Shown: piece after piece, positions 2,102 through 23,729 of the stretch
Position numbering within the stretch: position 1 is the first letter of the stretch
Layout: the number at the start of each line of letters is the position of its first letter
NCBI GenBank assembly: GCA_947561395.2
Contig: OX387187.1
Location: 41,521,829-41,585,828, forward strand
Origin: Buxus sempervirens
Taxonomy: Eukaryota; Streptophyta; Magnoliopsida; Buxales; Buxaceae
Reading direction: 5' to 3'
DNA: 64,000 nucleotides
Translations under genes and position numbers: made by a program
The notes under the pieces: generated by a model
Seen by the model: the letters and a program-made list of their open reading frames with translations, nothing else
Databases searched by the model: none
Told to the model about the DNA's origin: nothing

Positions 2102-2240
2102 TATCCGGTCTGACATACCGGATACATTGATTGGTCTTTGTATCCGGTATGTCATACCGGATATTCATCGGATCCTTTGTATCCGGTATACTTATCCGGA
2201 TATTACCAAAGCCTTTGTATCCGGTCTGAGTTACCGGATA
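2102..2240. repeat. Palindrome array A: four 23-bp TATCCGG-N9-CCGGATA units, 39-bp period
   Basis: Units start at 2102, 2141, 2180 and 2218. The ends (TATCCGG and CCGGATA) are conserved while the central nine bases and the roughly 16-bp spacers vary, as expected for selected binding sites rather than a fresh tandem duplication. The array lies immediately upstream of a TATA box and the DUF7745 gene. The same unit and period occur at 14032-14132 and 17613-17752. Confidence 0.9.
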
Positions 2241-2253
2241 TGTTAAAAGATGC

Positions 2254-2260
2254 TATAAAT
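2254..2260 (+). promoter_or_regulatory. TATA box of the antisense DUF7745 gene
   Basis: TATAAAT stands 13 bp after palindrome array A and about 110 bp before the chosen ATG at 2371. The expected start of transcription is near 2285-2290. This suggests the antisense gene has its own promoter inside the element. Confidence 0.6.
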
Positions 2261-2370
2261 GCAACCTGCCTCGGGATTTGAGCATTTTTTACGAGTTTTT
2301 GAGTTTAGAAACCCCCTTTTTCGCCTCTTTCTTCCTCCTCTTGAGTTCTAGCTTGCTCCCGTCCAATCCA

Positions 2371-4068
2371 ATGGAATCCGGATCATCTTCTGCCCCATTA
2401 TTGTCTGTCCACACTGCCTCCCCTGCAAAACAGCCTTTTAGATCAAAACCCCCAAATCTCACTAGGTACAACCCTGTGGATTCCTTTTACACAAGGTGGG
2501 TTAACTCTATGTCCCTAGATGATGAGAGGAGATGGGGTACTACCAATCTAGGCCATACCCTGCTCATTCCCAAGGTTCCCTTCAGGTGGGAGATTATAGA
2601 GGCCATGATTGGTCATTGGGTTCCTGATCTCAACTTGTTCCGTTTTGGGACCCATGAGATGACCCCAACCATTGAAGAGGTGGAAACCATCCTGGGCCTG
2701 AGGTTTGATGAGAAGGTGGTGAATCCACCTCTTAGGCCCAGTTACAAGAAGGAAGCTTCTACTTTTTTGGGCATAGGGAAGAAGGACTTGGGGGATTCTG
2801 ACACCCTTTTGACCCTATCTAAGGCTTTTTTGACTGAGAAGCTTTTGAGGGGAGAAGATAAGGAGGCCCGATTCAACGCGTTGACCCTGATAGTGGTCAA
2901 CCAGTTGCTTTTCCCACGGGAGGATGACGAGGTGGACTTGGCCTTGATTTCTGTGATATGCCAGGTTAGGGAGCGGGAGAGGTTGGCCCCTATGATTTTA
3001 GCTGGGATATATCAGGCCTTGACTGACTGCTACAACAGGAAGTCGAAACGCTTCTTAGCATGTGCCCAGATCCTGCAGGTAAACAAGTTTTTTTTTTCTT
3101 TTTTTCTTGCTTTTTGGCTTTCTTTTTGCCTTTTTTGCTTTTTTTTTTTTTTTTCTACCATGTGCTGACAGCTCTCTCTTCCTTTGCAGCTTTGGCTACT
3201 TGATCATTTGAGCCAGATTGAAGAGATCAATCGACACTTCTTCCCGAGTCTGAAAGTCCCTCTCTTGATGAGCAACAGGGGGTGCCCCGATATTCCAGGG
3301 GGCAAACAGGGCTGGTTTACTTTCTTGGGCTCACTTCAGGAGGACCAGGTGAGATGGCCTGGCACTTATCAGCCCAATGCGGAGACAGTGATTAGCTTCC
3401 GAGACCGCAACTTTCTGATTCTGGCTGGCCTGAGGCATGCAGTGCTTTATCTTCCTCTGCGGGTCCTTCGTCAGTTCCGAGCGACCCAGGGGATTATCAT
3501 CCCATATGGATACGAGGATCGTCTTGGGCCTCTTTCTATGAAGCTGAATGCCTGGTTGATGAAGGAGTGGTCTTATGTCCGCTTTATGCATGGTCCCGTC
3601 TTCTCGGAAACCCATGTGAAGGATTATCTCTTCTGGATCAAGGAACAGATACAGACTCAGGCCCCAGTACCCGAAGATCCTCCTGTAGTCTTGGCTCCCA
3701 TCTATGAGGACATTCTAGAGTCTGAGCGGGCTTCTCATAAGCGGCTTCAGCAGATATGGGTACGGGAGGCCCAGGAGCTCAGGATACAGAGTGCTTATCT
3801 GGAGAGGCAGCTTGATGAGCAGACCTCACGCCGTATTGCCGCGGAAGAGAAGCTGGAGGAGCAGAGGCAGGCCCGTTGCTTTGAGGTCCGTATGATCCGG
3901 CAGAAGTACCAGGATACTTTGGCCAGCCTTAGGAGTATGAGGATCCAGCAGGCCCTTTCAGATGAGGTCATTTCCTTCCTGAGTGATCCCGCTGCAGAGG
4001 GGGCTTCAGGAGTTATTGCAGCTCAGGCAGCTCGGATTCGGGAGCTTGAGGAGCGGCTAGGAGATTAG
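2371..4068 (+). CDS. Antisense DUF7745-type gene of the Tat element
   Basis: Two exons, 2371-3078 and 3190-4068, joined by a 111-bp GT-AG intron with a T-rich 3' end, give about 528 residues. The start ATG at 2371 is the first that fits the TATA box. Residues 30-240 have the DUF7745 pattern seen in plant transposon-linked proteins: DSFYTRWVNSM, then a WVPDLNLFRFG segment and PTIEEVETILGL. Residues 240-400 continue this fold. The C-terminal 130 residues are heptad-like, rich in Glu, Arg, Gln and Leu, and predict a long coiled coil, so a dimer is likely. DUF7745 is related to the plant mobile domain, so both antisense genes may belong to one superfamily. Role unknown; a DNA-binding or anti-silencing role is only inference. 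Confidence 0.75.
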
Positions 4069-5003
4069 CTTTATTTCCTGCACATTTTTCATACCTTTGT
4101 ACAAAATTGAACTCCAATAGTGGAAATACAAAGGATTTAATTCAAAATAAAGTTTTTATATTATTGGCCTCAGAATGCTCAGATGCTTGTAAAAACAAAG
4201 GTTTTATGAAAAGTATTTGATTTCTCATCACTGGCCAAAGTATAATTTTTCCTTTTTATATTTTTTTTGTATTTTTTGAAATTTGGTCCATGCACTTAAT
4301 CACCTATAATTAAGGGAATTAAAACCAGGTTAAATAATGAAAAGGGTAGTCCACAAAATACTGAAGGATCAGAACCGTCCATCTTAGGACCTTTAGAGTC
4401 ATCCCCAACTGCCAAAACTGCCCCATTCTGCTCATGCCGACTTTGCTTGAAGCTCAGATCCCCATGATCAACTCAACCTCTGATTTTCTTTCATTTTTCT
4501 TATTTTTTTCTTTTTTGCCTTTTTGCCAATATTGCCCCTAGCGCCAGTTACGGTTTTCACTAGGGCCGGCTTCTGAATTCCGTCATCACCCATCTTACTC
4601 TGATATTTAAATGAACAAGCCAAGATCACCGAGGGCTTAAAAATAGGACGAAATAAAGGCTAGGCTCAGTTTATGAAAGAAAGGGTATTAAAGGCCCAAA
4701 AATTTTCAAGTGTGGAAATAGGTCAACCGGACTTACAGTCATGATGAATTTAACCCTTTTCCCCCAAATTGCATTTTTTGCATTTTTTCACACTTGGCTT
4801 TCATTTGCCATTTCCATTGCTTTTCCTCTCTTTTTCTTTTTCTTTCCTCACTTTTGCCCCAATTGATTTTGCCCCAATTTGACTGTAAATCCGGTTTAGG
4901 TTGGTCAAAGAAACGAACCGGCTCAACTTGGCTAGACTAGGGATTAAAATTTTTGAAGGAAATAAAGAAAAATGGCCTCGGATCATTTCCTAGAAATATT
5001 CAC
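4069..5003. other. Spacer between DUF7745 gene and gag-pol end
   Basis: About 0.9 kb of AT-rich DNA between two converging genes. It should hold the 3' ends of both transcripts. Several T-rich runs are present, but no gene, palindrome array or clear polypurine tract was found. The polypurine tract is expected beside the off-window LTR. Confidence 0.5.
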
Positions 5004-8000
5004 TCAAGGAAAATACCTTTTTACCGCATCAGAGTTAATGGGCTCAGGAAAATCTGACCCATCCATTTCTGCTAAGATGAGTGCTCCCCCTGATAGGACT
5101 TTCTTGACGACATATGGGCCTTCCCAATTGGGCTTGAACTTACCACGAGGATCTTCCAAAAATGGTAGGATTTTCTTTAGCACTAATTTTCCTTCTTGGA
5201 AAGTTCTGGGCCTCACTTTCTTATTGTAAGCCCGGGCCATTCTCTTCTGGTACAACTGTCCATGGCAAAGCGCTTTCAATCGCTTTTCTTCTATCAGGTT
5301 AAGTTGATCATGTCTCGACTGGACCCATTCATCTTCTTCTAGTTCTGCTTCCATGAGCACTCGGAGTGACGGGATTTCTACTTCCACGGGCAAGACTGCT
5401 TCCATCCCATAGACTAGGGAGTATGGGGTTGCCCCAGTTGAAGTTCGGATCGAGGTTCTGTATGCATGTAGAGCAAGTGGCAGCATTTCATGCCAATCCT
5501 TGTAGCTCACTACCATCTTCTGAATGATTTTCTTTATGTTTTTGTTTGCTGCTTCTACTGCCCCATTCATCTTTGGCCTGTACGGAGCTGACTTATGGTG
5601 GGTGATCTGAAACTGCTCACACATTTTCTTCATGTCCTTGTTCTTAATATTTGAAGCATTGTCTGATACTATGGCACTTGGCAGTCCATAGCGACAAATG
5701 ATATTGTGCTTCAAAAATTTAATAACATGGTTGCTAGTGATGTTTGCATATGAGGCTGCTTCCACCCACTTAGTGAAATAGTCAATCGCCACCAGGATGA
5801 ATCTGTGTCCGTTCGATGCCTTAGGTGAGATCATGCCAATAACATCTATGCCCCACATAGAGAAGGGCCAGGGTGATGTCATGTTGTGCAGCTCACCTGG
5901 GGGTGCATGCTTATTATCTGCATATATCTGACATTGGTGGCACCTCCTGACATGTATACAGCAATCATGCTCCATGGTTGTCCAGTAATACCCTAGCCTC
6001 AGGATCTTCTTTGCCAACATGTGCCCACTCATATGGGGCCCACAAACTCCTCCGTGTACAGTTTCAATCAATCTTTCTGATTCAGCCTTGGCAACACATC
6101 TTAGCAGAATGTCATTATGTGACCTCTTGTACACATGTCCACCACTTAGCAGAAACTGACCAGCCAATCTCTGTATTGTCCTCTTCTCAGTGGCAGTGGC
6201 ATTTTCTGGCAAACTCCGATTATTCAAGAAATTCTTGATATCTTGAAACCATGGTGCTTCTTCTTCTGGTGCTCCCTCTAGAACGAGACAGTAAGCCGGT
6301 TCATCTCGGACCTCAATTTCCAGTGGTCTGATGTCTACTCCTTCTGGTATGCTGACCATTGAAGCTAATGTTGCTAGAGCATCCGCAAACTGATTCTTGG
6401 CCCTTGGCATATAGTTGAAGGAAATTCGAGTGAAATTTGTGCTTATTTCTTCCAAATACTGGTGATAGGGGATCAATTTGTGATCCTTGGTTTTCCACTC
6501 ACCAGTTGTTTGGAAGATGATAAGACTCGAATCCCCATATACGTCAAGTTCCTCTACTCCATGATCCATGGCTGCTTGCAATCCAATTATGCATGCCTCA
6601 TATTCTGCTATGTTATTGGTGCACTGGAATCTCAGCTTTACTGCAATCGGGATGTGTGAACCATCTGGTTTAACCAAGACTGCCCCTATTCCGTTCCCAT
6701 TCATGTTGGCGGCCCCATCGAAGAACATCTGCCAAGAACTCTCACTGTCCTCCTCTTCAGTGTACAGAATCGCCTCATCTGGGAAGTTGGTCTTCAAGGG
6801 TTGATATTCTGGCAAAGGATGTGCGGCCAGGTGATCAGCTATGGCTTGACCCTTGACCGCCTTCTGGGTGATGTATGTGAGGTCAAACTCGGACAGTAGC
6901 AGTTGCCACTTTGCCGTCCTGCCAGTCAGTGCCGGTTTCTCAAATAAATATTTCAGCGGGTCCATCCGGGATATCAATAGTGTGGAGTGACTAAGGAAAT
7001 AATGCCTTAGCCTCTGAGTGGCCCACACTAGAGCACAGCAAGTCTTCTCCAATGGTGAGTATTTGGCTTCATATTCTGTGAATTTTTTACTCAGATAGTA
7101 AATCGCCCTTTCTTTTCTACCAGTCTCATCATGCTGCCCCAAGACACATCCCATCGACGTTTCCAACACTGACAAGTACAAGATCAGCGGTCTTCCTGGA
7201 GTTGGTGGCACTAGCACAGGTGGGTTCAGCAAATACCTTTTTATTGTGTCAAATGCCTGCTGGCAATCCTCATTCCAGACCGTTGGGTTATCCTTCCTCA
7301 GAAGTTTGAAAATTGGTTCACAGATAGCAGTGAGCTGTGCTATGAACCGGCTTATGTATTGAATCCTTCCAAGAAAGCCCCTGACCTCCTTCTCGGTTCT
7401 GGGTGCTGGCATTTCAATTATGGCCTTGGCTTTAGCCGGGTCAATTTCAATTCCTCTTCGGCTCACTATAAACCCAAGTAACTTCCCCGATGTAGCCCCA
7501 AAGACGCATTTAGCCGGGTTAAGCCGTAGACTGTACTTCCTGAGCCGATCAAACACTTTCTTCAGATTGATCAAGTGGTCCTCCTCTTTGCATGATTTGG
7601 CAATCATATCGTCCACATAGACCTCCATCTCCTTGTGGATCATGTCATGAAATAGTGCAGTCATGGCCCGCTGGTATGTTGCCCCAGCGTTTTTAAGCCC
7701 AAATGGCATGACTGTATAGTGGAATGTGCCCCAAGGCGTGATAAATGCTGTTTTCTCTTGATCCTCCTTAGCCATCTTGATCTGATTATATCCTGAGAAA
7801 CCATCCATGAAGGAGAACAGGCTATGTACCGCAGTATTATCGACCAGAATGTCGATGTGTGGAAGCGGAAAATCATCCTTTGGGCTTGCCCTATTTAAGT
7901 CTCTATAATCCACGCACATTCGGACCTTCCCGTCCTTCTTTGGTACTGGCACTATGTTTGCGAGCCACTCTGGGTACGTAGAGACTGCCAGAAATCCAGC

Positions 8001-11000
8001 TTGGAACTGCTTGACCACTTCGTCCTTGACCTTTAAGGTCCATTCAGGTTTCAATCTTCTCAGCTTCTGCTTAATCGGCTTAACCCCTGGCAAAATTGGC
8101 AACTTGTGCACCACCATGTCAGTGTCCAACCCCGGCATGTCCCGATACGACCAAGCAAACACATCCTTGTAATCTGCCAAGAACTGTGACATTTCATTTT
8201 TCTGCACATCAGACAAGCATGATCCGATTTTCACAATTTTTGGGTCCTCTTCGGTCCCAAGATTTATGGCTATGGTCTCCTCAATATTAGGTTGGACCCC
8301 CTTTTCATGACGTTCCAATTGGTATTCAATTTCTTTTGGAACGTCTTCTTCTTCGACCTCGGTCTCTTCTTCGACCCCCATGAGATCAAAGTCGAGCTCA
8401 AGGTCGAAGTCATATTCAACCTGGTCCAATTCGGTCTGATTATATGGTTCATAAGTGGTTTGGACCTTTTTGAAAAAATTAAATTTTCTAGAAAAAATAG
8501 AAAAATATTTTTGGGTTTTTTGTGGGCCTTCTAAACATAATTCCCCTGAAGACGAAGGCCCATTAGAACCTTCAGGGAAATGGCATTCCACTATTGGAGT
8601 TTTTTTTTGGAAGCCGTCAGTTTGCCGAACTAACGCTGCTTCAAAGGTAAGGGGAGTTTCCTCCCAATTGTTTAATACAAAATTTTTGGGAGCAGGGGAA
8701 ATAGGGAAAGCCTGCTCTTCAAGCCCAGCATCCGATGCCATCATCACCGGGTGGGTACTGCCCTTTTTTGCTGCGGGGCTCAATCCAGAAATGACCTCTT
8801 CCGGAATCTTTACTGCGGCCCAGTCAATAAACGGTAGCTCGTTGTCACTACCAGTCTTCTCGCCTTCAGTCATGGCGAAGAATGCACCAACATCCTCAGA
8901 AAAGTCCACCTGCTGCTCGGGCTGTGGTCCAGGCCTATCCACTGCTCCCAGTATTGGAGATGGGTTATAGGGTTGTAGGGCCGAAACAGAAGGCTTTTGA
9001 AATGGGTTGACATTGTAGTAGGGAGGTTTTGATTGGTCCATAGGAGGAGAAATTTGGATTATATAAGCGGGTTTTGGGAAGTTCACCCTCAGATGTGGGA
9101 GTTTTCCTTTGCTTCTGCTCTCCCCTTCTTCATGCTTCATTCTTCTCCAGCCTCTGGGCTTGAAACCCAACCCTACCTTGGGGATCAGTTTCTTAGCCGT
9201 GATTGGCTCCACCATCCCCTGCAGATTGATCCCCAGGCCTTTCCCTGGGTGAAAGTGGTATTTCTCCATCACTTTCTTGACCATCCTTTCTGCAGTGGTC
9301 CCTTTTTCTTTCTTTTTCTCCCACCCCCCAGGTATGTAATTGACCGCCTCAAATTGGAATGAGTGGAATGCAATCTTGTCGACAGTTAGATCCACATTGA
9401 TCAATGGTACATCAGGTGACACGATGGGCGGCACCAAGTTTTCAGCTAGGACTGTTATCACCCTTTGCCCTCTTATGTATTTCACCCTCTGGTGGAGCGT
9501 GGATGGTATTGCCCTAGCCGAATGTATCCACGGCCTTCCTAGGAGCAGATTGAAGTCTGCGGGTATATCCATCACTTCAAATGTGATGTTAAAGATATTC
9601 GGCCCAATTGTGACCGGTAGTTCAATCTCCCCTAGGGAGTGGGTCTTGGAGCTATCAAAAGCCCTCACTATCCGCCCATTCCGTTTGATCCTTGACTGGT
9701 CCAGGCCCAGCTTGGTAAAAGTGATTAACGGGCAAACGTTTAACGCTGACCCGTTGTCAATTAAAACCCGTGCAACCATGCAGCCCTTACAAAGCACAGT
9801 GATGTGCAAAGGGTCCACATGATAACACCCACCTGGGCTGATCTCACCCTCTGAGAAACTTATCACATTATGTGACAAGATTTGACCAACCATTTTACCA
9901 AGCTGGTCCGGATCAATGGTCTGGGATACGTGTGCACTCTGTAGCACCCTTAACAATGCATTCCTGTGCTTCTCAGAATTTAGCAAAAGGCCCAGTATTG
10001 AAATCTGGGCCGGGACCTTGTTTAGCTGGTCCACAAGATTGAATTCACTCTTCTTTATTATTTTTATGAGGTCTGCTGCCTCATTTTCTGCACCCTGGGG
10101 GGTGTCTTCTCCCACTTTATTTTTTCCTTTCTGTTTTCTTTTTTCTTCATTTTCTTTTTCTATTTTTTCTTTTTCTGTTTCTGTCACCTTTTCTTTCTCT
10201 TCACCCCCTGCACATCTCCCCGACCTCGTCATGAGGTTCACCTCCTCCTGGTTCTGGTTCCTGACCATTGGAACCGTAGCCGTGATTCCCTCGCTGTAGC
10301 TCCATGGTACAGCGGCCTCTGAATAGGCTAATTTAGGGATATTAACCACTAGTGGCTGGAGTTTGGACCGGGATGTATGGGCCGGTTTAGGGATAGTTTG
10401 GGCTGGCTGCACATTTACAACCAGGGGTTGAAGTTTGGATTTGGTGGGGACAGAAGAAGTGATGGAAGCAGTGGTGGGGTCAAGATTGATGACCAGTGGA
10501 GCCTTAGACGGCTTGGATGGGGAATAAGTGGATGGACTGCAATTGAAGACCAATGGGGGTCTTGCAGTATTCATCTGGGCCATGAGTGAAGAGACCCGGT
10601 TTAAAGAGGAACTTATGTCCTCAGCAGCAAGATTATTATTTTTTTGGGAGACCATGTTGATCTCCTCTTCGTCCTCCTCTGGGAAAAAATGGACCTGGAC
10701 AGTGGTCCCTACTGGTGCTATAAGTTGTGATGGGTCAAAGGCCCTTCTGGTGGTGGATATGGCAGTGATGGAGTTGGATGGGCCTGCCCCATTGTGGTAA
10801 GGCAGAGGATTCTGCCCAATATCATTCCCGGACGGGGCCGGTGCAGCAGTGTTGAACACCAAGGCCTTCTGGTCCAACAAATCCTGGACTGCATGCTTCA
10901 ATACCCAGCATGTATTAGTAGAGTGCCCCGGTGCACCCATGTGGAAGTCACAGGTGACCGATGTGTCAAAATTTCTTCCCCTGGTGGCATTCGGGTTAGG

Positions 11001-12302
11001 CTCCTTCAGAGTCAAGTATTCCCCTTTCAGCAGGGTTGGCAGTAGTTGGGACAGAGATATCGGGAGAGGGGTGAAAACCCGGTTCTTTCTTGCTGCGAAC
11101 CAGACATCCCGCTCCTCCTTAGAAAAAGTCCTCCTTGTGTTAGCTGGCACAGAGGGGGGAAAGTTGACATTCAGTGGGGTCTGGTACGACTGCTGGGCCT
11201 GCTGGGCCTGTTGGGGTGCCGAGATGTTCACATGAAGTGGCTTCTTGGCTGGAGGAGCCTGGACCAGGTTCACCTCCCCTTCTTTTCGGGCCCCCGTCTT
11301 TTTAAACCCGGCCCCTTTCTTCTGGGCCATGGAGGAAGAGGAATCAGACTGCCCAGTCAAAGTAGAGTAGTCTATCAGCCTTCCTGACCTGACCCCTTCC
11401 TCGATCCGGTCCGCTACCTGTACCAGGGCTGCAAAGTTGGTGGTGATCTGACCCACCAGATGGTTGTAAAAGGGCTGCCCTAGTGTGCCCATAAATGTGG
11501 AGATCATCTCCGGCTCTTGCATAGGTGGCCTGACCTGGGAGGCGGCCTCTCTCCACCTCTTGGCGTATTGCCGCACCGGTTCATCCTTCCCCTTGGTCAT
11601 CCTCATCATGTCGTACCGGTCCGGCACGATCTCCGAGTTGAACTTGTACTGGTCCAAGAAAGCGTCTGCTAGGTCCTTCCACCTCCTAATCCTTCCATGG
11701 TCCACTGTAGCGAACCACCGAAGGGCTGACCCGGTCAGACTCCTCTGGAAGAGCTGGATCAGTATTCCATCGTCCCGGCCAAATTGGCACAGGGCCCCGC
11801 AGTATAATTTGAGATGGCTCAATGGGCAGCCCGTGCCATCAAACTTGTCAAAATCTGGGCACCTGAACTTAGCCGGTAGACAGACGTCCGGGTACATGCA
11901 CAGGTCCTCGAAGGTGGTGCCTGCATGGCTGCCTCCCCCCTTCACTTCCTTCAGCTCTGCCTGGATCCTCTCTATCCTGAGCAGCATCTTCTTTTCCATC
12001 TCATCTCGGGCCTTTTCTTTCTCCAGCTCTTTCTCAGACTCCGCCATATTTTCCCTGATCAGAATGGGTTCAGGGACTGGTTCAGAAATGGGCTCAGGCA
12101 TGGGCTGAACCGGAGGCGGAATGTAGGCCTGAGGTGGTGGTGCCTGATGGGAAGTAGATGCCTGGTTCGAGGCTTGGGCCTGTTGGGCTTGAGCCGCCAG
12201 TAGGTCCCCCAGCATTTTGGCCAGACCAGCCACTTGCTCCTGCAGTTGAGTAAAGTCCTGAGCAGGGACGGTAGCTTGGGCTTGGTTCTCTTCAGTATTC
12301 AT
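5004..12302 (-). CDS. Gag-pol polyprotein of the Tat element
   Basis: One open frame of about 2,430 residues from the Met at 12302 looks whole. Rough order from that Met: Gln/Pro-rich start; gag capsid domain (about 140-290, with FRCPDFDKFDG and ALRWFATVDHG); a zinc-knuckle-like CDFHMGAPGH...C segment near 455; protease with DNGSALNV near 850; a G-patch-like glycine motif (HPGKGLGINLQG) near 1035; an acidic linker; reverse transcriptase (about 1400-1620, YVDD near 1560); first RNase H; a second, archaeal-type RNase H with FFDGAANMNG near 1865; integrase with its His/Cys zinc part near 2080-2125 and the DDE core at about 2150-2250; a C-terminal tail. The open frame continues upstream to 12623 through the tandem repeat, but the Met at 12302 precedes gag proper and is the likelier start. 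Confidence 0.93.
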   Translation of the reverse strand: MNTEENQAQATVPAQDFTQLQEQVAGLAKMLGDLLAAQAQQAQASNQASTSHQAPPPQAYIPPPVQPMPEPISEPVPEPILIRENMAESEKELEKEKARDEMEKKMLLRIERIQAELKEVKGGGSHAGTTFEDLCMYPDVCLPAKFRCPDFDKFDGTGCPLSHLKLYCGALCQFGRDDGILIQLFQRSLTGSALRWFATVDHGRIRRWKDLADAFLDQYKFNSEIVPDRYDMMRMTKGKDEPVRQYAKRWREAASQVRPPMQEPEMISTFMGTLGQPFYNHLVGQITTNFAALVQVADRIEEGVRSGRLIDYSTLTGQSDSSSSMAQKKGAGFKKTGARKEGEVNLVQAPPAKKPLHVNISAPQQAQQAQQSYQTPLNVNFPPSVPANTRRTFSKEERDVWFAARKNRVFTPLPISLSQLLPTLLKGEYLTLKEPNPNATRGRNFDTSVTCDFHMGAPGHSTNTCWVLKHAVQDLLDQKALVFNTAAPAPSGNDIGQNPLPYHNGAGPSNSITAISTTRRAFDPSQLIAPVGTTVQVHFFPEEDEEEINMVSQKNNNLAAEDISSSLNRVSSLMAQMNTARPPLVFNCSPSTYSPSKPSKAPLVINLDPTTASITSSVPTKSKLQPLVVNVQPAQTIPKPAHTSRSKLQPLVVNIPKLAYSEAAVPWSYSEGITATVPMVRNQNQEEVNLMTRSGRCAGGEEKEKVTETEKEKIEKENEEKRKQKGKNKVGEDTPQGAENEAADLIKIIKKSEFNLVDQLNKVPAQISILGLLLNSEKHRNALLRVLQSAHVSQTIDPDQLGKMVGQILSHNVISFSEGEISPGGCYHVDPLHITVLCKGCMVARVLIDNGSALNVCPLITFTKLGLDQSRIKRNGRIVRAFDSSKTHSLGEIELPVTIGPNIFNITFEVMDIPADFNLLLGRPWIHSARAIPSTLHQRVKYIRGQRVITVLAENLVPPIVSPDVPLINVDLTVDKIAFHSFQFEAVNYIPGGWEKKKEKGTTAERMVKKVMEKYHFHPGKGLGINLQGMVEPITAKKLIPKVGLGFKPRGWRRMKHEEGESRSKGKLPHLRVNFPKPAYIIQISPPMDQSKPPYYNVNPFQKPSVSALQPYNPSPILGAVDRPGPQPEQQVDFSEDVGAFFAMTEGEKTGSDNELPFIDWAAVKIPEEVISGLSPAAKKGSTHPVMMASDAGLEEQAFPISPAPKNFVLNNWEETPLTFEAALVRQTDGFQKKTPIVECHFPEGSNGPSSSGELCLEGPQKTQKYFSIFSRKFNFFKKVQTTYEPYNQTELDQVEYDFDLELDFDLMGVEEETEVEEEDVPKEIEYQLERHEKGVQPNIEETIAINLGTEEDPKIVKIGSCLSDVQKNEMSQFLADYKDVFAWSYRDMPGLDTDMVVHKLPILPGVKPIKQKLRRLKPEWTLKVKDEVVKQFQAGFLAVSTYPEWLANIVPVPKKDGKVRMCVDYRDLNRASPKDDFPLPHIDILVDNTAVHSLFSFMDGFSGYNQIKMAKEDQEKTAFITPWGTFHYTVMPFGLKNAGATYQRAMTALFHDMIHKEMEVYVDDMIAKSCKEEDHLINLKKVFDRLRKYSLRLNPAKCVFGATSGKLLGFIVSRRGIEIDPAKAKAIIEMPAPRTEKEVRGFLGRIQYISRFIAQLTAICEPIFKLLRKDNPTVWNEDCQQAFDTIKRYLLNPPVLVPPTPGRPLILYLSVLETSMGCVLGQHDETGRKERAIYYLSKKFTEYEAKYSPLEKTCCALVWATQRLRHYFLSHSTLLISRMDPLKYLFEKPALTGRTAKWQLLLSEFDLTYITQKAVKGQAIADHLAAHPLPEYQPLKTNFPDEAILYTEEEDSESSWQMFFDGAANMNGNGIGAVLVKPDGSHIPIAVKLRFQCTNNIAEYEACIIGLQAAMDHGVEELDVYGDSSLIIFQTTGEWKTKDHKLIPYHQYLEEISTNFTRISFNYMPRAKNQFADALATLASMVSIPEGVDIRPLEIEVRDEPAYCLVLEGAPEEEAPWFQDIKNFLNNRSLPENATATEKRTIQRLAGQFLLSGGHVYKRSHNDILLRCVAKAESERLIETVHGGVCGPHMSGHMLAKKILRLGYYWTTMEHDCCIHVRRCHQCQIYADNKHAPPGELHNMTSPWPFSMWGIDVIGMISPKASNGHRFILVAIDYFTKWVEAASYANITSNHVIKFLKHNIICRYGLPSAIVSDNASNIKNKDMKKMCEQFQITHHKSAPYRPKMNGAVEAANKNIKKIIQKMVVSYKDWHEMLPLALHAYRTSIRTSTGATPYSLVYGMEAVLPVEVEIPSLRVLMEAELEEDEWVQSRHDQLNLIEEKRLKALCHGQLYQKRMARAYNKKVRPRTFQEGKLVLKKILPFLEDPRGKFKPNWEGPYVVKKVLSGGALILAEMDGSDFPEPINSDAVKRYFP

Positions 12303-12539
12303 TGTTCTGGCTTTGGATCTAGTTACTGGAGCAATGATTGCAAGTGTACCTGGGTTGAATGTACCTGATGAATAAAAGTGAATAGAACATGTTAGCTTCC
12401 ATTTAACTTGAGTCACACCCCTATATATGTAAACCAGTAGGTTAGGTGAACACCAATCCAGAAAAAAATTTTTTGTTTTTGTTTTTGTTTTTTTTTTTTT
12501 TGTTTTGAGTTGGAATATTCTAGGGCTTCCAAGGGTCCC
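12303..12539 (-). other. Leader next to gag
   Basis: Short stretch between the gag Met and the tandem-repeat array. It is open on the minus strand in the gag frame to 12623 but has no recognised domain. Confidence 0.5.
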
Positions 12540-13712
12540 AATTTTTTTTGATTTGATTGATAAAAATAACCAACCAAGGTTTTCATTTTTTTTTTGATTT
12601 GATTGATAAAAATAACCAACCAAAGGTGTCTTGGACTACTCTATCCAAGTATCCCACAAATGTTTTGATTTGATTGATAAAACCAACCAAAGGTGTCTTG
12701 GACTACTCTATCCAAGTATCCCACAAATGTTTTGATTTGATTGATAAAAATAATCAACCAAAGGTGTCTTGGAATATTCTAGGGCTTCCAAGTATCCCAC
12801 AAATGTTTTGATTTGATTGATAAAAATAACCAACCAAAGGTGTCTTGGAATACTCTATCCAAGTATCCCACAAATGTTTTGATTTGATTGATAAAAATAA
12901 CCAACCAAAGGTTTTCATTTTTTTTTTGATTTGATTGATAAAAATAACCAACCAAAGGTTTTCATTTTTTTTTTGATTTGATTGATAAAAATAACCAACC
13001 AAAGGTATCTTGGAATATTCTATCCAAGTATCCCACAAATGTTTTGATTTGATTGATAAAAATAACCAACCAAAGGTGTCTTGGACTACTCTATCCAAGT
13101 ATCCCACAAATGTTTTGATTTGATTGATAAAAATAACCAACCAAAGGTGTCTTGGACTACTCTATCCAAGTATCCCACAAATGCTTTGATTTGATTGATA
13201 AAAATAACCAACCAAAGGTGTCTTGGACTACTCTATCCAAGTATCCCACAAATGCTTTGATTTGATTGATAAAAATAACCAACCAAAGGTGTCTTGGACT
13301 ACTCTATCCAAGTATCCCACAAATGTTTTGATTTGATTGATAAAAATAACCAACCAAAGTTTTCATGGAATATTCTAGGGCTTCCAAGGGTCCCAATTTT
13401 TTTGATCTTTTTTATTTTGATTTGATTGATAAAAATAACCAACCAAGGTTTTCATGGAATATTCTAGGGCTTCCAAGGGTCCCAATTTTTTTGATCTTTT
13501 TTATTTTGATTTGATTGATAAAAATAACCAACCAAGGTTTTCATGGAATATTCTAGGGCTTCCAAGGGTCCCAATTTTTTTGATCTTTTTTGATTTGATT
13601 GATAAAAATAACCAACCAAGGTTTTCATGGAATATTCTAGGGCTTCCAAGGGTCCCAATTTTTTTGATTTTTTTGATTTTGACTTGATTGATAAAAATAA
13701 CCAACCAAGGTT
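12540..13712. repeat. Tandem-repeat array in the Tat leader
   Basis: About 17 units share the core GATTTGATTGATAAAAATAA followed by CCAACCAA. Core starts near 12556, 12601, 12672, 12739, 12816, 12886, 12933, 12980, 13051, 13122, 13193, 13264, 13336, 13424, 13513, 13598 and 13687. There are three unit classes: short (45-47 bp), middle (67-77 bp, mostly 71) and long (85-89 bp, at the LTR-side end). Tandem repeats in untranslated parts are known in Tat elements such as Retand. Confidence 0.9.
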
Positions 13713-15548
13713 TTTTTTTTCTTCTTCAAATTTGCTGAATTTTCTCAGTTTTCAAGTTCCAGAGTTTGATTGACACATGTTTGAGTTGAGTTGGTGTCAA
13801 AAAATATGACACCTTGGTTTCCTCTTTGATTTTCAAACTTAGGTTAAATCCTGAAAGAATATTTTATTTTATTCTTTTTTTTTTATTTTTCTTTTTTTTT
13901 GTATATTTTTTTTTGTATTTTTGGGAACATTTCTTATGTTCTTTTCAGGGTGCCTAAGGATTATCCACAGTGTTTTAGGCATTTTATTTTGAAAATTTGG
14001 GCTGAAAAGCCAATTTGTGCATTTTTGAACGTATCCGGTATAACATTCCGGATAATAATATGCCTTATTGTATCCGGTTACCATAACCGGATTCACGCAT
14101 ATGCCTTTTTATCCGGAAATATATACCGGATATGAACAGGGTTGTTATTAACCGGCCTGAGTTGCCGGTTATTGCCGAAATGGCCCTTTTTGACTCATTT
14201 TTTCACCAGATTTGATTTTTTTTCATTCCCAATTGATGTTCACCTTAATTTGACCTTCAAAACTTGCCCCAAATCGGGCTTGGACATCATACTTGCAAAA
14301 TTCCCCAAATTTAATAAAAGGACATGGCTTTACCTTGCCACCTTGTATTACCTTCATTCAATATGGTATGCACATTATACCTTGGCCTGTAAAACATGCA
14401 AACGGCCTTCCCACATTTACACCCAATTCCCCAAACGCAATTGTGTGCTTTTAGCCAAAAACGTGTTTCTCCACCTTCAAGCGTATGGTTTTTGGGTTTT
14501 GGCTTAATTGGCAACTTAGAACTCAAGTCTAGTGATGCCCGGAATCGAATCACAGATCCCATTGTCATCACATCATTGACCCAAATTCTAAGGTAAATGT
14601 TTTCACTTTCGCTTTCCGAAGTCACGACCTCGGTGCGCCAAGCTACACACATTCATGGTTCAACTTCCTAATAGGTAAAGGGTAGGCTGTGCAAATTGTT
14701 TCAAGTGCTCAAGTGCAATTTTAAATTGTGGTAACATTCACAACGTCCCAGCCCCTTGCCACTCTTTTTCGTAGCCATGCATTCAATTTCAAGCCAAGGT
14801 ACATATGACAAAAATAATGAAGCTAACTACAAGCAAGCAAGAGCCAAAGCAACCAAATATGCACAAAAAATATTACATGCCCAAAAAGTGTTATACAAAA
14901 CATGTCATTTGTACAAACAACCATTAAATCATGTAAGCATGCTTGAAACTCAAAAGCATTCCCTAAAATCCCAGATTTCATGCTCTTTTTCATGCTCAAA
15001 GTGTACCATTTCTACCCCAAATTGGAGCCTAAAATTTTAGCACTACTTGACATGATACCAAAGTGTTTCAATGAGGTAAAATATGCTTGAAATCTCCAGA
15101 AATATGCACTAAAATTTTCAGATTTCTCATGCTCTTGGTTTTCATGCTTAAATTGAATCCCCCTATACCCCAAATCAAAGGCATGGCATAACAAAAATTT
15201 TTAAGCACCAAAAAGCATGCTTTATAGGAATCATGTTTGAATACCCCAAAAATTCTGAACTCCTAGATTTCATGTTTCTAATTCTCATGTTCAAACCATG
15301 GTATTCAAAATCCAAATTAGAGCATGTTGTCAAAAATATAACCAAATCATGCTTCAAGATAGGCTTTTCCTAAATCAACCTTTAGGCAACATCAAGTAAA
15401 ACATACATGACTTGATTCATATAAAATTCAAAAGCATCCCAATCTGATTTGAAATACAAGAATATGCACAAATAAAACAAACAAAATAGCAAGCATTCAA
15501 AAGTGATGAAAAAGCATGAATATACACAAAATGGCTTAAATCCACAGG
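13713..15548. other. Tat leader between repeat array and primer site
   Basis: About 1.8 kb of AT-rich untranslated leader. It holds palindrome array B (14032-14132) and a loosely related AACCGG...CCGGTT palindrome at about 14150-14171. No gene is supported; the short open frames are scattered and without recognisable domains. Confidence 0.6.
14032..14132. repeat. Palindrome array B: three 23-bp units, 39-bp period
   Basis: Units start at 14032, 14071 and 14110 with the same TATCCGG-N9-CCGGATA layout as arrays A and C. The second unit ends CCGGATT. It sits in the leader between the primer site and the tandem-repeat array. No TATA box was seen beside it. Confidence 0.85.
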
Positions 15549-15566
15549 TCCCCAGCAGAGTCGCCA
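15549..15566 (-). other. Primer binding site of the Tat element
   Basis: The minus strand reads TGGCGACTCTGCTGGGGA two bases inside the LTR end. This is the primer-site type common in Tat/Ogre elements, where it is usually ascribed to tRNA-Arg. I have not aligned it to a tRNA. Confidence 0.8.
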
Positions 15567-17447
15567 GTTGTGAGACATGGGAAAAAATCACCGGGGTGAT
15601 CGTCCCTCCGTCAACACACGGGCTCAACGCAAAAATTGGGAGAGTCGCCACCATTCATGATTTTGGGGTGAGAATGGACACCAAAGATTCAAAAATAGGC
15701 AAAAATAGCCAAAAGAAACATTATAGGATAAAAATAATCCTACTTGAAAATCAAATCCAGAGATGGGTAAGGGGATTAGATTATGAACGGGGGAAGGTGT
15801 TAGGCACCCCCATTCATCCACACGAAGTGGTTGCCAAGTGTATGTTCATGCTAAAAAGAAGTAAGAAAGCTTGCTAAAAATCATGGAAAAGCCTTGAAAA
15901 AGGAACAATGTATGATATTTTCACATGAAGATCCAAATAGATTTTAGATCTTCTCTTATGTCAATATCACTTCTGGAGTATTTCAAAAGATGGAAATCAA
16001 AGTAAGAGTGGCCAAAACCAAGTTGAGGCAAATCCGGGAATTTTGGTAAAAAGTATGCCATTTGCATTAAAATCATTCAAATCCAATTCTGAATTGAACC
16101 AAACCAAATCCATTTGAAAGATTAGGGTAAATAAGAGTCTCATGCAAAATTTCACTTCATTCCGATGAAAAATCTAGGAGTTATGCTCCTTTGAAGTTGC
16201 TGTTGGGGATTTTTAAAAGTGATAAGTGGGCAACTTTGGAAAATTGTCTAGAAAAATCCACTACACAAAAGTCCATGAAATTTGGTGTGATTGAAGTTTG
16301 TATGGCCATCTTTCCATAGAAACTAGCCTCATACAAAAATCCCTTCGGATGTGCCTTGGGTGGTCTCCCGAACAGGCCCCGAAGATCACAGATTTACCCA
16401 GAAAAATGCAAATGAGCAGTTCTGAGTAAATCGGCTACCAATAATTCAAATAGAATCGAAAAATTATGAAACCAACTGGATTTGAAAATAGACTCATAAA
16501 GGAGTACTCAGAAACAAAAATCACTCGAATCGGACTTAAAACGAACACATGGCGGTCCGTCGAAGTGACAAGTTCTGTACTTGGACCTGAACTGTCCACT
16601 TAACTTCGACAGAGCAGTGTCAAAAATCGGCTAGATATAAATTCATGAAATTTGGTGGACATAAATTAGACAGCCCCACCTTTCCCATGGTTCTGGAATC
16701 GCCCCAAAATTCATTCGGATGATGAAGTTACGGACGTCCGAAGTAAGGGTACAGGTGCTGTCAAGCTAAGCCATTTTTGAGTAAAAACCCAATCCGAAAA
16801 TTGATAAAAAAATGAAATTCGGGCAAGATGAACACAAATACTTTAAAATCATCCGAAAGGCATTCCAGAATTGATTGAGGCCATTTATTTGAGATTTATC
16901 GCAATAAATGCAATAAACCCCAAATATGAGCCTATCCCGCCAAAATAGTGATGTGTGTGCAAAAGTGAAAAAAACCTAGCAAGATCCATACACATGCATA
17001 TAAATTCAACAAAATAGGTTCTAGCATAGCCTAGGGTTCCGTTACATTATCGTTTCCCTCTGTTCTCTTTAAGATAATCAAGGGTACTTTGAATATGGAA
17101 CGGTTTACAATCAATCAAAAAGGCCTTATGCTACATAGGTTCTAGCACTAGGGTCAATCCCTAGTCTCGTTTCTCCTAGATCCGCCTTCACGTTTTACGG
17201 CTAGGGGAGTCTTGAGATACTTTGAGCCAGGGAAGGATTTCCACACATACAAACAAGGCTTTACACTACAGAAAGGTAGAAGAAGAGATCTAGATCTAGG
17301 AATGTAAAGACAGAAAATAAAAAGAAAAGTTGAGGCTTACCTGAGTTCTGGAGGCGATTCCACAGCGGTTTCCTTCTTCTCTTGGAGTTCTTCTTTGCGA
17401 GAATTCAAAACAAGAGTTGTGTGTCATTTGCTCAAGGAGGAGGCTCC

Positions 17448-17455
17448 TATTTATA
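17448..17455 (-). promoter_or_regulatory. LTR TATA box
   Basis: The minus strand reads TATAAATA within CCTATAAATAGG. Transcription of the element should start about 30 bp downstream, near 17420, placing about 1.85 kb of the LTR in the transcript. Palindrome array C lies 158 bp upstream. Confidence 0.7.
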
Positions 17456-17612
17456 GGCAAGGGCCAAGGTCATTGGTAGACACAAATTAATGTCTAGAAC
17501 CCCTCCAACCTAAACCCTAAGGTTATTTCCGCGATTTCCCCTCATTTAATGAGGGACATGATGGTAAAAGTGAAAAGCTCTCGGAAAACCCTAATTTTGA
17601 GCAAACTTAAGG

Positions 17613-17752
17613 TATCCGGTATATCAGACCGGATAACAAAGGGCCTTAAGGTATCCGGTACATGGTACCGGATACGCTAAGGCTCACACGTATCCGGTAT
17701 GAGTATCCGGATACGGGGAGGAGTACTTGTATCCGGATTGAGTATCCAGATA
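17613..17752. repeat. Palindrome array C in the LTR: four 23-bp units, 39-bp period
   Basis: Units start at 17613, 17652, 17691 and 17730. The fourth ends CCAGATA, one base off the consensus. The array lies in the upstream promoter part of the LTR, before the TATA box. A second copy is expected in the LTR outside the window. Confidence 0.9.
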
Positions 17753-17843
17753 CAGGTAAAAATTTATTTTCTTCAAATTCTGTGCTGGCTTTCCAGGAGA
17801 TAGTGATTTTTGATGATTGTTTGTGCAATTTGGGGTGTCTACA

Positions 17844-19066
17844 GACGTACTACACACTCAAGATTTAAAATACCAATAAATCTCACAGAGTCTAGCCGAT
17901 GCAATATATCAAAACAGAGTAGCACTGCTGAGTTATTGCGATATACTAATCTTATCATACGGGATGAAGCTCCAATGGCAAAGCAAATGGCAATTGAAAC
18001 TTTAGATAGAACTCTACAGGATATCATGAGCAATAATATAACTTTTGGTGGAAAGGTTATTGTCTTTGGAGGTGATTTTCGTCAAGTACTTCCGGTAGTT
18101 CCTCGTAGCACAAGAGCTGAAACAATTAATGCAAGTTTGGTGAGCTCATATCTATGGTCGAAAATGGAAAAACTATATTTGACAATAAATATGAGAGCAA
18201 GTTGTGATTCATATTTCAGCAAGTTTCTTTTAAATGTTGGCAATGGTGAGGAGCCTACTATTAATGGGGATATGATACGAATTCCAGATGAAATGGTAAT
18301 CCAATATGAAGGTGATAAAAAGTCAGAAGGTTTGTTGATTGAAAGTGTCTTTCCTTCGCTGAAGCAAAATGCTAATTCAGCAACTTATATCACTCAACGC
18401 ACAATTTTGGCCACTAAAAATGATTTAGAGGATAAGTTGAATGAAAAGCTGATCATACAATTTCCTGGTGAGGTGCTTACATACTACAATTTCGATTCAG
18501 CTTTTGATGACTCACATACTACGTACCAAGAAGAATTTTTGAACTCATTAACACCAAATGGACTTCCCCCTCATAAGTTCATGCTCAAATTAAACTATCC
18601 CATCATATTACTACGAAATTTAGATCCTGCAAATGGACTGAGTAATGGCACATGGATGGTTTGTAAGGGTTTCAGTCAAAATGTCATCCAAGCTGAAATA
18701 ACAACAGGCCATCACTATGGAAAACAAGTGCTGCTTCCGAGAATACCTATGTCTCCTGCAGAAAATGAAGGATATTCATTTCATTTCAAGCGGAAGCAAT
18801 TTCCAATACGACTTTGCTTTGCAATAACAATAAATAAGGCACAAGGGCAAACTATAGAAAATGTTGGTATTTATTTACCAGAGCACGTTTTCTCACATGG
18901 CCAACTATATGTAGCACTATCTAGAGGAATTTCAATGTTTACAACAAAAGTAATGATCAAGCCGGATTCATCTATTAAGAAGAGGGGAATGTATACAAAA
19001 AATGTTGTCTATAAAGAAGCCCTAGCTGGAGGGAGGTATAAATATAATTGCACCATATTTATTTAA
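17844..19066 (+). pseudogene. Pif1-like helicase domain of a Helitron RepHel, split by the Tat element
   Basis: The frame is open from the LTR junction (THSRFKIPIN) to the stop at 19066, about 405 residues. Visible helicase motifs are IIRDEAPMA (motif II), VIVFGGDFRQVLPV (motif III), and near the end FAITINKAQGQT and QLYVALSRG (the last two Pif1 motifs). The Walker A motif and the Rep nuclease with its HUH motif are absent here and must lie upstream of the insertion. DEAP replaces the usual W before DEA. In an intact Helitron this protein cleaves and unwinds the element's ends during rolling-circle transposition. The open frame shows that the helicase part itself decayed little. Confidence 0.9.
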
Positions 19067-19300
19067 TATTTACAATTTTTATTCAACAATTTCAAATTTT
19101 TATATATGCTTATGATTACATTTTATAGTTGCACTGGTTAATTCAAATAATGTTATTATTCTTAATTATATTATTATTATTATTATTTAGAATTTGAAAC
19201 AAATAATTATTTCTCAACAAATAAAATCATAAAATTTAATGACTTATATTCTTTGTGTTGTAAAAAACTAACTTTGGTTTTTTGTCATCTTATTTTTCAG

Positions 19301-21272
19301 GACAAATCCTTCGTATGGATGACCAGATGGAAAAATACGTGACCATCAATTCCCTTAAACCATTTGATAGAAACTGGACAATTAAATGTCTTATTCTTCA
19401 GCGAGGATCCATTGACACATACAATAATGCAAAGGGATCTGGAAAGATTTGGAAATTAATTTTATTGGATGAAGAGGTAAAAAAATATTATTGCTTTCAT
19501 TATTTTTCGAAAATTTAAACACCAAATAGTTTCTTCATTTTTTTTACTTTAATACTTAATATTATTATTTTTACTAATTTCATAGGGAACCAAAGTACAA
19601 ATGGTACTTTTCAATGATATTATCTCAAAGTTCGAGACCACTTTATTCACGAATAAGACATATGTTTTCAAATGAACTTGTCAAACAAGTAAGTCCCGGA
19701 TATCGTAATGTCAATGAAAAGATAGAGCTTACCTTTTTCACCCATAGTGATATTAAGGAACGGAGGACTTAGTTAGTTTGGACAACTTTAATATCAATTC
19801 AGTTTGATTGAAGCTACAAGAAGAATGGAAGATAGTACTTCTCTTATCGGTATGCAAAAGTTTAAATTATTAAGGTAGTATTTACTAATATTTGATTAGT
19901 TTATATTATATAAATTACAATTTTACTTTATTCGAATTTTGCTGCAAATATATTTGGAATTGTTGTTAGCACAGGTCCTTTGATTCCAATTACAAGAGTA
20001 AGAGATGGTGTACTGACATTCAAATGTGACATCATTATAGCTGATTTGGAGTAAGCTTACATCTTGTCTTTTATGTAATTAAGAGAATAATTTTAGTTTG
20101 AATTTTAACATGCATTTTTTTTATTATATTTATACATCTAATAAACAATTCAAATACTATTACATTAACCCTGTGGGGAGATTTGGCACAAAGCGAAGGT
20201 GAGTAATTTACAGATTTGGAGTCCCAATACCCATTAATCGCTATATCATCAGTGACAATAACATCCTACCAAGGTAATATGTTTTTAATAATGTCTTTTC
20301 GTATATGAATAACTATGGTTTAAATGTGGGTGTATGTCATTTGTTGATATATGTTGTGCATATCTATACTTTCTCAATTACTTAGTAATGCCCTTATGAT
20401 GAAAATCATTTATTTTTTTCTATTAATGACAAAACATCTTCAATTTGTAACAGGAACATCCTCACTGTCAACACTTACTGTGTCCATTGTACAAATTAAT
20501 CCAAAAATCCCCCAAGTAGAGGACATCAAAACAGGGTAATCCTTTTAATACTCAAATTTTAAATCTAATAAATAATATTAATGAGTACATGTATTGTTGT
20601 ATTCCAAAAGCAGCACAAACTTAAAATTCATTGATTTTTTTTTTACATATGAATTATTATTATTAATTCTTGAAGTTATCAATAGGTTGAAGTTAGAAAA
20701 TTGGCTGCGAAACAAAGATTCAAATATCTTGGAAAACGATTTAGAGAAGCAGACAACATGCAAATTAAAGATATAATTGAGAAATCTTTTTCATCTTTTA
20801 AGGTAATTTTGTAATTAACTTGTTTAATATGAAATTTACATATATCAAATATTATGTTCTTCATTAATGACATGTGTTTATATTTTTTTGTCAAATGAAA
20901 TAGAATACATTTGTAAGTTTCAAAGCAATTGTGATTAATGTTGAGAATATGGAGGAGCTTTGGTATAGTTCATGTACAGCATGTACAAAAAATGTTATCA
21001 TCAAAGATAATGTTGCTGAGTGCAGGGCGTGTAACAAAAACAATGTTGAGTTCTTTCCAAGATGATATTTGTAAAATATTTTATCGATTATATTTTAATT
21101 ACAAAGACCTAACACTGAATTGTGAAATCACATTTTATCAATTTTCATGCAGATTTAGAATGAAGCTTGTTGTTTCTGACGGTGACCAAAGAGCGTTGCT
21201 CACATTATTTGACGAAGCAACCAAACTCATTGGATGCTCAGTTGCAAACTACATCAAGTCAATGGAAGAGGT
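19301..21272 (+). pseudogene. RPA1-like single-strand-binding gene carried by the Helitron, degenerate
   Basis: Exons matching replication protein A large-subunit paralogues are visible. The first, 19301-19476, reads YVTINSLKPFDRNWTIKC and a DEE donor edge (OB fold A). The second, from 19586, reads GTKVQMVLFNDIISKFE but changes frame before SPGYRNVNEKIEL. A later exon near 19980-20050 holds GPLIPITRVRDGVLTF-like sequence. Near 20910-21060 a zinc-ribbon C-x2-C-x12-C-x2-C (SCTACTK...ECRACNK) is followed at 21152-21272 by an OB-fold part, FRMKLVVSDGDQRALLTLFD. In-frame stops and the shift near 19670 show that it is a remnant. Helitron RPAs are thought to coat single-stranded transposition intermediates. 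Confidence 0.75.
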
Positions 21273-21727
21273 TTGACTATTCCTCCCCACATATTCGTTC
21301 CTTAAATATTTACATATACATATTCTTTAAAATTAATAATATATATGTATATTATGTCAGGATAGTACAAAGAGTGTTTATTACAACAAGCTGCTCAAGT
21401 GTAAAGGGAAAATTTACTTTTTCCTTGTAAAATTGATGGCAATATGAAGTCCATCCAATATGAAGATCCAATTTCCATGCATCAACAAATGAAGATCAAA
21501 ATTGAGAAGGATTAGGAAAAACTTTTCTCTTATTGAACAGTGATATTGTAATTCATGTTTAACACTATTTCACTTTTTTTATATTTCATCTTCTGTCATC
21601 ATGGTTCAAAATAGTGAGCTGAGTTATTGTATTTCATTGCAAATAGTATATGCCTTTTTTTTTTTTATCATAGTTATCTTTCATTTTCTTTGCATCTTAT
21701 TTTTTACTATTACTCTTAATAAAATTC

Positions 21728-22610: not shown

Positions 22611-23729
22611 ATTAACATTTACACCTGATCACTCGATCTGGGCACAGTGGGTAAAGGCTTATTTGTTGAGGGGAAGAAACTTATGGCAAGTCCCAATCCC
22701 GTCTACAACTACTTGGGTATGGAGGAAGATACTAAAGCAATGAGATGACACATTTTCTTTGATCAGGTACAAAATAGGAAATGGTGATAATACATGGCTG
22801 TGGCTGGATAATTGGCATCCTATGGGCTCGTTGATAAGGAGGTATCGTCACAGACTTCGTTATGATGCAGGTATCCCGTTGAACGCAAAAGTTGCAACTG
22901 TCATTGATGGACAAACATGGGATCTGCCTATTACTCAAAGTCAGGTCTTTAATGAAATATGGCAAGCATTATACTTGCTACCGCCTCCCAACCAAGTATG
23001 ATGTGATAAAGTAGTATGGAAACCGTCACCTTCAGGAATCTTTTCCATTAAATCAACTTACAATGCATTGAGGATGGTCTCTCCGAAAGTGGTATGGAAT
23101 AAGATTGTGTGGTTTAAGGACAATATTCCACGACCTACATTTATTCTTTGGACAGCCGTTCACCAAAGGATTCTTACTCAAGACAGGCTTCAACAGTTGA
23201 ATATAATCGCTAGATCTCGATGTGTACTATGTCAAGCAACTCATGAGGACCTTGATCACCTCTTTTTCCAATGTAATTATTCAAAACAAATTTGATCAAG
23301 AGTAATGGGAAAAAATGGAATTTCTATTCGGCCAACTCGTTGGGAACAGGTTATTGAATGGGCAGTTTTGAATCTTCAAGGTAAAGGTCTTATACCATTG
23401 GTAAAGAAGGCATCACTTGCAGCAATGACTTATCATGTATGGAGAGAAAGGAACCGAAGACTATTTCAAAGCAAAGCTACCCCGGTGGAAAATCTGGTGG
23501 GATTAATTACCATGGACATAAGCATGAGATTTTTGTATATCCATGAAGGAGTAAGAGACAATAGCTCAAACAGAATTTTTTGTACAAATTGGAATCTACA
23601 CCCCAATTTCATCTAGATTGGGTTTTTAGATTTTGTAAGTGTCTCTGGGAGCGCTATGTTTTTTTTCTTTTCTTGTAACTCCTTGTAAATCTTTACTGAT
23701 ATATATATATATATACATTAACATTTACA
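22611..23729 (+). mobile_element. 5'-truncated L1-type LINE with 13-bp target duplication
   Basis: The body is 22624-23716. Both sides carry ATTAACATTTACA (22611-22623 and 23717-23729). It encodes the end of ORF2: WVWRKILKQ, then RYKIGNGDNTWLWLDNWHP, then a zinc-binding zf-RVT domain (CVLCQATHEDLDHLFFQC), and a tail with YHVWRERNRRLFQ. The reverse transcriptase core is missing through 5' truncation. At least three in-frame stops (near 22741, 23000 and 23295) show that it is dead. The 3' end is a short TA-repeat tail (about 23699-23716), not a plain A run. Confidence 0.9.

Follow-up and report, generated by a model that had tools for sequence, protein, structure and literature searches.

Sireviruses, which belong to the Ty1/copia retrotransposons, carry palindromic repeated motifs (RM) in high copy number, and in 12 of 13 elements these have a CGG-CCG core (Bousios 2010, PMC2829016). 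According to the sections of that paper covered here, the RM are clustered in the upper long terminal repeat (LTR), upstream of the TATA box, and this CpG-rich cluster forms a CpG island. Extra copies are found in the linker, upstream of the envelope-like gene, in 77 of 79 cases, and the consensus for Citrus reads AATCCGGCTWRCCGGATT. We describe here a similar arrangement in a window of 64,000 bases (the whole stretch analysed) of Buxus sempervirens contig OX387187.1. It occurs in a retrotransposon on the minus strand which, judged by its domain order, is a Tat element of the Ogre/Retand type and has two antisense genes, A and B. At three non-coding places this element bears four units of the 23-bp palindrome TATCCGG-N9-CCGGATA. 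We consider, with a probability of about 0.7, that these arrays are cis-regulatory rows of four dimer sites serving the LTR and the antisense promoter, protein binding being predicted from the sequence.

A scan of the window for the motif, with up to 3 mismatches tolerated, gave 13 matches, whereas 100 shuffled sequences averaged 1.02 and none of them reached 13. Twelve of the matches constituted the three arrays, none of which was assigned a strand. Array 1 (2102-2240; units at 2102, 2141, 2180 and 2218) lies upstream of antisense gene B, array 2 (14032-14171; units at 14032, 14071, 14110 and 14149) in the leader and array 3 (17613-17752; units at 17613, 17652, 17691 and 17730) at positions 92-231 of the LTR, in U3. 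The thirteenth match, at 3894 with 2 mismatches, falls inside an inferred coding exon and is not part of any array. Units followed each other at 39 bp in eight of nine intervals and at 38 bp in the remaining one (2180 to 2218). The units at 14071 and 17730 each carried one mismatch, and the fourth unit of array 2, at 14149, had the symmetric two-change form TAACCGG-N9-CCGGTTA. CCGG, and with it the CpG of the arm, was retained in 23 of the 24 arms. In a general palindrome scan of the window (perfect 7-bp arms with at least 3 G+C each, loops of 3-15 bp; 92 matches), no arm sequence recurred at three or more places apart from the array motif itself, which appeared in four overlapping registers, and no further tandem copies of the palindrome were found in the window beyond the three non-coding places.

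Across the 12 units, mean pairwise identity was 0.952 in the arms (14 columns), 0.406 in the centres (9 columns) and 0.323 in the spacers (16 columns), and the lowest arm column, at 1.59 bits, still exceeded the highest non-arm column, at 1.35 bits. The spacers were partly constrained, with a G immediately 5' of the unit in 10 of 12 cases and a T or C six bases ahead in all 12. Permutation revealed no significant difference between likeness within and between arrays, be it for arms (p 1.0), centres (p 0.90) or spacers (p 0.10, with identities of 0.358 within and 0.310 between arrays). As likeness within arrays does not significantly exceed that between arrays, nothing clearly points to recent local copying. 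In-register likeness, such as TGAGT among the fourth units, was suggestive and not significant (32 of 576 permutations). Duplication of the arrays as blocks was rejected: 3 of 24 array-flank comparisons scored unusually against simple shuffles, but against dinucleotide shuffles only one did (array 1 left with array 3 right, 5/300), which we did not count as significant after 24 tests, and the flank homology was unconvincing.

These data also bear on whether the arrays could be a neutral minisatellite, that is functionless tandem copies produced by slippage as in many Tat elements. Tandem repeats do occur frequently in large plant elements as well as in Retand elements, as described in parts of PMC6317226 and PMC11963269, and the leader of the present element contains two other minisatellites. 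Uniform decay, however, would not spare 14 arm columns while losing the other 25, nor would neutral decay maintain the spacing, and the units within arrays are not homogenised, which makes a neutral origin highly improbable. The identity of the non-arm parts corresponds to about 1.2-1.8 substitutions per site. Under neutrality, if indel/substitution ratios of 0.05-0.15 are assumed and each site has undergone 1-2 substitutions, roughly 5.6-33.8 length changes would be expected, against one observed among the nine intervals. The divergence of the units is probably not due to decay after insertion, as judged from the open gag-pol frame described below. This frame suggests a recent insertion, and the units therefore probably diverged while the element was propagating. 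Conserved arms together with nearly random centres and spacers support a putative conserved binding array rather than recent copying.

The initial annotation had already reported three arrays with an exact 39-bp period and well-kept palindrome ends next to differing centres and spacers, from which it had proposed selection on a binding array over recent copying. The arrays are real, the identities given above bear out the contrast between ends and remainder, and arms conserved beside nearly random centres and spacers, with no excess of likeness within arrays, agree with the proposed selection. The period, on the other hand, is not exact in one interval, two of the listed units are imperfect and the unit at 14149 had been overlooked.

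To which transcription unit each array belongs follows from the right-hand limit of the element. The 5' LTR (15569-17843, minus strand, 2275 bp, TGTAGACACC...TGTCTCACA) had its ends defined without comparison of an LTR pair, the 3' LTR being outside the window; its right edge is consistent with PIF1 homology starting at 17846. An open reading frame (ORF) for PIF1 at 17813-19066 was considered as a possible element gene under the control of array 3, and was rejected as such, its homology beginning straight after the LTR end at 17843. With the PIF1 ORF placed outside the element, array 3 is therefore the array of the LTR promoter and array 1 that of the antisense gene. The LTR TATA box (17448-17456, minus strand, CTATAAATA) is situated 156 bp downstream of array 3. 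A putative TATA box of gene B (TATAAA, 2254-2259, plus strand) follows 13 bp past array 1 and lies 111 bp ahead of the ATG at 2371; the chance of finding TATAAA within 20 bp of any array is about 0.03. Array 2 is located about 1.4 kb past the LTR and about 1.7 kb ahead of the gag start. The three sites are thus distinct, as had been proposed in the initial annotation (LTR promoter, leader, antisense-gene promoter), but if that list followed coordinate order, the roles of the arrays at 2102 and 17613 were swapped.

The arrays further stood out by their CpG content. Their CpG observed/expected ratio was 1.37, and 0.62 when the arms were left aside. For comparison, the ratio was 0.57 for the remaining LTR, 0.30 for the remaining leader, 0.41 for gag-pol, 0.38 for the exons of gene B and 0.44 for the DNA from pol to gene B; the DNA beside array 1 had a ratio of 0.84. 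Taken individually, the arrays reached 1.24-1.55 at a G+C content of only 41-49%, over about 140 bp. As the arms contain CCGG, binding would potentially be sensitive to CG and CHG methylation.

We propose that each array provides four sites for a dimeric sequence-specific protein, which would touch both CCGG-containing arms of the 23-bp palindrome. Adjacent dimers would be kept 39 bp apart, and the near-fixed spacing suggests that they cooperate. Array 3 in U3 upstream of the LTR TATA box, array 1 directly ahead of the gene B TATA box and array 2 in the leader could be recognised by a shared regulator that sets gag-pol and antisense-gene transcription together, the use of both TATA boxes and the direction of the regulation being predicted. 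The presence of the same array at the LTR and at the antisense promoter would allow one regulator to control both transcription units.

Several observations weigh against this interpretation. A period of 39 bp does not correspond to an integral number of helical turns. No TATAAA was found within 1 kb of array 2 on either strand, and Pfam scans reported no DNA-binding family for the antisense proteins. The plain CpG count of the arrays is matched by 2-4% of the element's 140-bp windows and is thus high, not unique. As the window holds a single copy of the element, all conservation was measured between units and not between elements. Finally, the arms are also compatible with RNA hairpins.

This last point leads to an RNA version of the hypothesis, in which the palindromes would form hairpins in the genomic RNA for packaging, dimerisation or translation. 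All three arrays folded far better than shuffled sequences (four folds, z -7.1 to -10.5), although strong folding is expected from palindromy alone. Nearly all arm pairs are preserved in the minus strand, and genomic RNA would contain the arrays provided that the 3' LTR, which is outside the window, has the same array as the 5' LTR. The spacing of 39 bp and a position 13 bp ahead of a TATA box, however, have no obvious reason at the RNA level, and covariation on the loop side was not significant (20 of 36 pairs, p 0.087). Three events altered the arms: one is compensatory, another leaves a G-U wobble on the genomic (minus) strand, and the remaining one disrupts a terminal pair. They do not separate an RNA from a DNA role. 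Taken together, we regard hairpins in genomic RNA as an improbable explanation.

The assignment of the element rests on gag-pol (5004-12302, minus strand), a single open frame of 2432 amino acids with the domain order gag, G-patch, reverse transcriptase, RNase H, second RNase H (RVT_3) and integrase. Pfam matches in this protein were found at 1453-1613 (RVT_1), 1702-1806 (RT_RNaseH), 1861-1979 (RVT_3) and 2146-2243 (rve). In Ty1/copia elements integrase lies ahead of reverse transcriptase; here it follows reverse transcriptase, which is not the order of a Sirevirus. The primer binding site (15547-15566, minus strand, TGGCGACTCTGCTGGGGACC) lies 2 bp past the LTR and may be complementary to tRNA-Arg, as is characteristic of the Ogre type. 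No second copy of the LTR was found within the window, and the 3' LTR must therefore lie past its left edge. The two leader minisatellites (12542-13714, no strand assigned) have periods of 71 and 89 bp and differ in sequence from the palindrome; they have TTTTGATTTGATTGATAAAAATAACCAACCAA in common. The second RNase H is located between RNase H and integrase, an arrangement that marks the Ogre and Retand clades of Tat in angiosperms (Neumann 2019, PMC6317226, in the part covered here). In search of relatives, the pattern of paired array units gave 0 stretches in viral and genome contig collections, peptide patterns from a 998-amino-acid piece of gag-pol matched 4 and 8 stretches of which none was confirmed as a relative, and exon 1 of gene B had no match. 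The collections scanned were non-plant, so that missing relatives say little.

Both antisense genes are located to the left of pol on the plus strand, and their exon models were inferred from reading frames and GT-AG sites. Gene B (2371-4068) would consist of exons 2371-3078 and 3190-4068 and encode 528 amino acids. Its product matched the plant mobile domain (PMD; E 2.1e-19) and DUF7745 (E 1.1e-25) in Pfam, and its C-terminus appeared coiled-coil-like by eye. Gene A (3-1822), with inferred exons 3-350, 421-579, 653-1042, 1123-1272, 1353-1497 and 1578-1822, has its start outside the window; this gene, incomplete at the window edge, gave no Pfam domain above the cut-off and resembled a PMD by eye only. 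The Retand domain TRP28 (PF04195) had no match in gene B or in gene A as cut by the window edge. The two genes shared a weak C-terminal match only (E 0.012), and paralogy is therefore not claimed. Protein B had 0 matches among PDB sequences at E values up to 1, and an AlphaFold2 model of exon 1 of gene B, with a mean pLDDT (predicted local distance difference test) of 36.9, was unusable and was not used.

Which protein might read the arrays can be approached from two sides. One is a host transcription factor, for which the arrays would be boxes as in other plant LTR promoters, repeated by the element at its antisense gene. Sireviruses, members of another superfamily, bear comparable CGG-CCG palindromes, and the half-sites ATCCGG...CCGGAT of the Citrus consensus, as given in the sections of PMC2829016 covered, are nearly the same as those of the array motif. 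The gap between the arms, however, varies between the Sirevirus motifs and the array motif (9 bp here), and a single fixed host dimer would therefore not explain both. No known plant factor was matched, and an LBD candidate received no support among the literature matches listed. We consider a host reader possible, at somewhat less than an even chance.

The other side is the element itself: antisense protein A or B could bind the arrays and regulate its own promoter as well as the LTR, possibly as an anti-silencer of the VANC type, an idea already raised in the initial annotation. The promoter of the protein itself and the LTR each have an array, and VANC proteins bind tandem motifs in the non-coding DNA of the transposons that encode them (PMC5735166, in the text covered). 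For antisense proteins of the related Retand lineage, DNA binding was predicted and a regulatory role suggested (PMC11963269, portions covered), but that prediction concerns TRP28, which was not found here, protein B being of the PMD/DUF7745 type. Some PMD clades are encoded only by Gypsy elements, and anti-silencing was speculated for PMDs captured by MULEs (Ikeda 2017, PMC5418596); the covered text of the same paper nevertheless calls the function of the PMD undetermined and does not contain the term 'DNA binding'. Neither homology nor structure gave evidence for DNA binding by the antisense proteins. A reader encoded by the element is accordingly a tentative proposal, with the odds against it. 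By analogy with the VANC systems one may go further and take the antisense PMD protein for the element's own trans-acting regulator, binding all three arrays in a feedback loop or in methylation-sensitive anti-silencing, which we think unlikely. If true, this would assign a function to Tat antisense genes and would amount to a VANC-like system evolved independently in a retrotransposon. The function of antisense genes in Tat retrotransposons, which are abundant in some plant genomes, is described as an open question in the portions of PMC11963269 covered. An array common to the LTR and the antisense promoter offers a concrete DNA target for testing Tat antisense proteins.

Further features lie in the DNA to the right of the element. 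The Pfam match to PIF1 opens at position 70 of the 223-position profile (bp 17846), and a match to the C-terminal domain of replication factor A was located at 20935-21276 (E 0.0011, below the cut-off). Together, these fragments (17846-21276) are most likely a Helitron that was interrupted by insertion of the Tat element, as far as can be judged from the sequence; its other half would lie past the left edge of the window, and a putative target-site duplication likewise outside the window. A zf-RVT domain (reverse-transcriptase zinc-binding domain) at 23002-23295 (E 8.7e-26) is probably a remnant of a long interspersed nuclear element (LINE). A multi-exon gene at 30347-33400 had a PMD match just under the cut-off (E 1.8e-8) and, by eye only, an HMG-box-like stretch ahead of the PMD and an Ulp1-protease-like stretch after it; it probably derives from a DNA transposon. 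About 79 copies of a 22-bp repeat (TTACAAGTCCAACCTACCCTAC) occupy 33743-35510. They are followed at 35564-35813 by a 71-73-bp repeat (GAGCGTGACGCG...CGCTCGAGCGTCAAGG), which is present in about 3.4 copies and contains the palindrome CGCTCGAGCG. This repeat precedes a Transposase_32 gene (36804) by about 1 kb; its motif is unlike the arrays, its placement comparable. Transposase_32-type ORFs occur at 36804-37556 and 63042-63944, nearly alike and in opposite orientation. The same is true, by eye, for two copies of a FAR1/MULE-type gene at 40473-42503 and 59152-61695, the second of which has one in-frame stop. The paired copies suggest that a large segment was duplicated in inverted orientation or that one transposon is present twice.

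Among the described systems, the VANDAL transposons with their VANC proteins (PMC5735166, PMC10398659, both as far as covered) resemble the present element in having short tandem motifs in non-coding parts. The VANC21 motif, YAGTATTAY, however, is without CpG, and the string 'palindrom' does not occur in the covered text of PMC5735166. VANDALs are Mu-like DNA transposons and binding by VANC was proven, whereas binding of the arrays is predicted here from the sequence. VANC systems are, at most, functionally analogous to the arrays.

Closer relatives of the element itself share other traits with it. Retand elements, as presented in the covered portions of Vicient 2025 (PMC11963269), are Tat elements in which antisense genes, with a suggested regulatory role, lie between pol and the 3' LTR, and they contain tandem repeats. 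Their antisense domain is TRP28 whereas here it is a PMD, their LTRs measure 315-1,194 bp against 2,275 bp, and the portions covered name no cis-site for the antisense proteins. In Ogre elements, according to the parts of PMC6317226 covered, a second RNase H likewise separates RNase H from integrase and the LTRs are large. A PMD is present in 57% of Ogre, and a PMD in an extra gene was found here in gene B. PMD and G-patch are both known as extra domains of plant Gypsy elements (PMC6317226, PMC9289625, in part). In Ogre, however, a putative intron lies between gag and pol (PMC9289625, in the part covered), whereas gag-pol here runs as a single frame from 12302 to 5004.

The closest parallel for the arrays comes from the Sireviruses. 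As in the RM sections of PMC2829016, palindromes are placed in the LTR upstream of the TATA box and again upstream of an extra gene, and the multi-copy palindrome, here in 12 units, has the CGG-CCG signature. Sireviruses are Ty1/copia elements with an envelope-like extra gene, whereas the present element is a Ty3/gypsy Tat element with an antisense PMD gene. An array in the leader, equal arrays of four units and a near-exact period of 39 bp do not appear in the Sirevirus sections consulted, and the arms of the present motif are 9 bp apart. The initial annotation had known of no described Tat element with such arrays, and among the literature matches listed we found no report of such arrays in Tat elements either; the titles among the matches listed for TATCCGG look unrelated. 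It had, however, overlooked the palindromic CGG-CCG motifs of Sireviruses, a close precedent that was already in print. A closely similar layout was therefore known from Sireviruses, to which the element adds a Tat version with an antisense PMD gene, an array in the leader and equal four-unit arrays. Its extension to another superfamily of LTR retrotransposons suggests either convergence or a common host factor.

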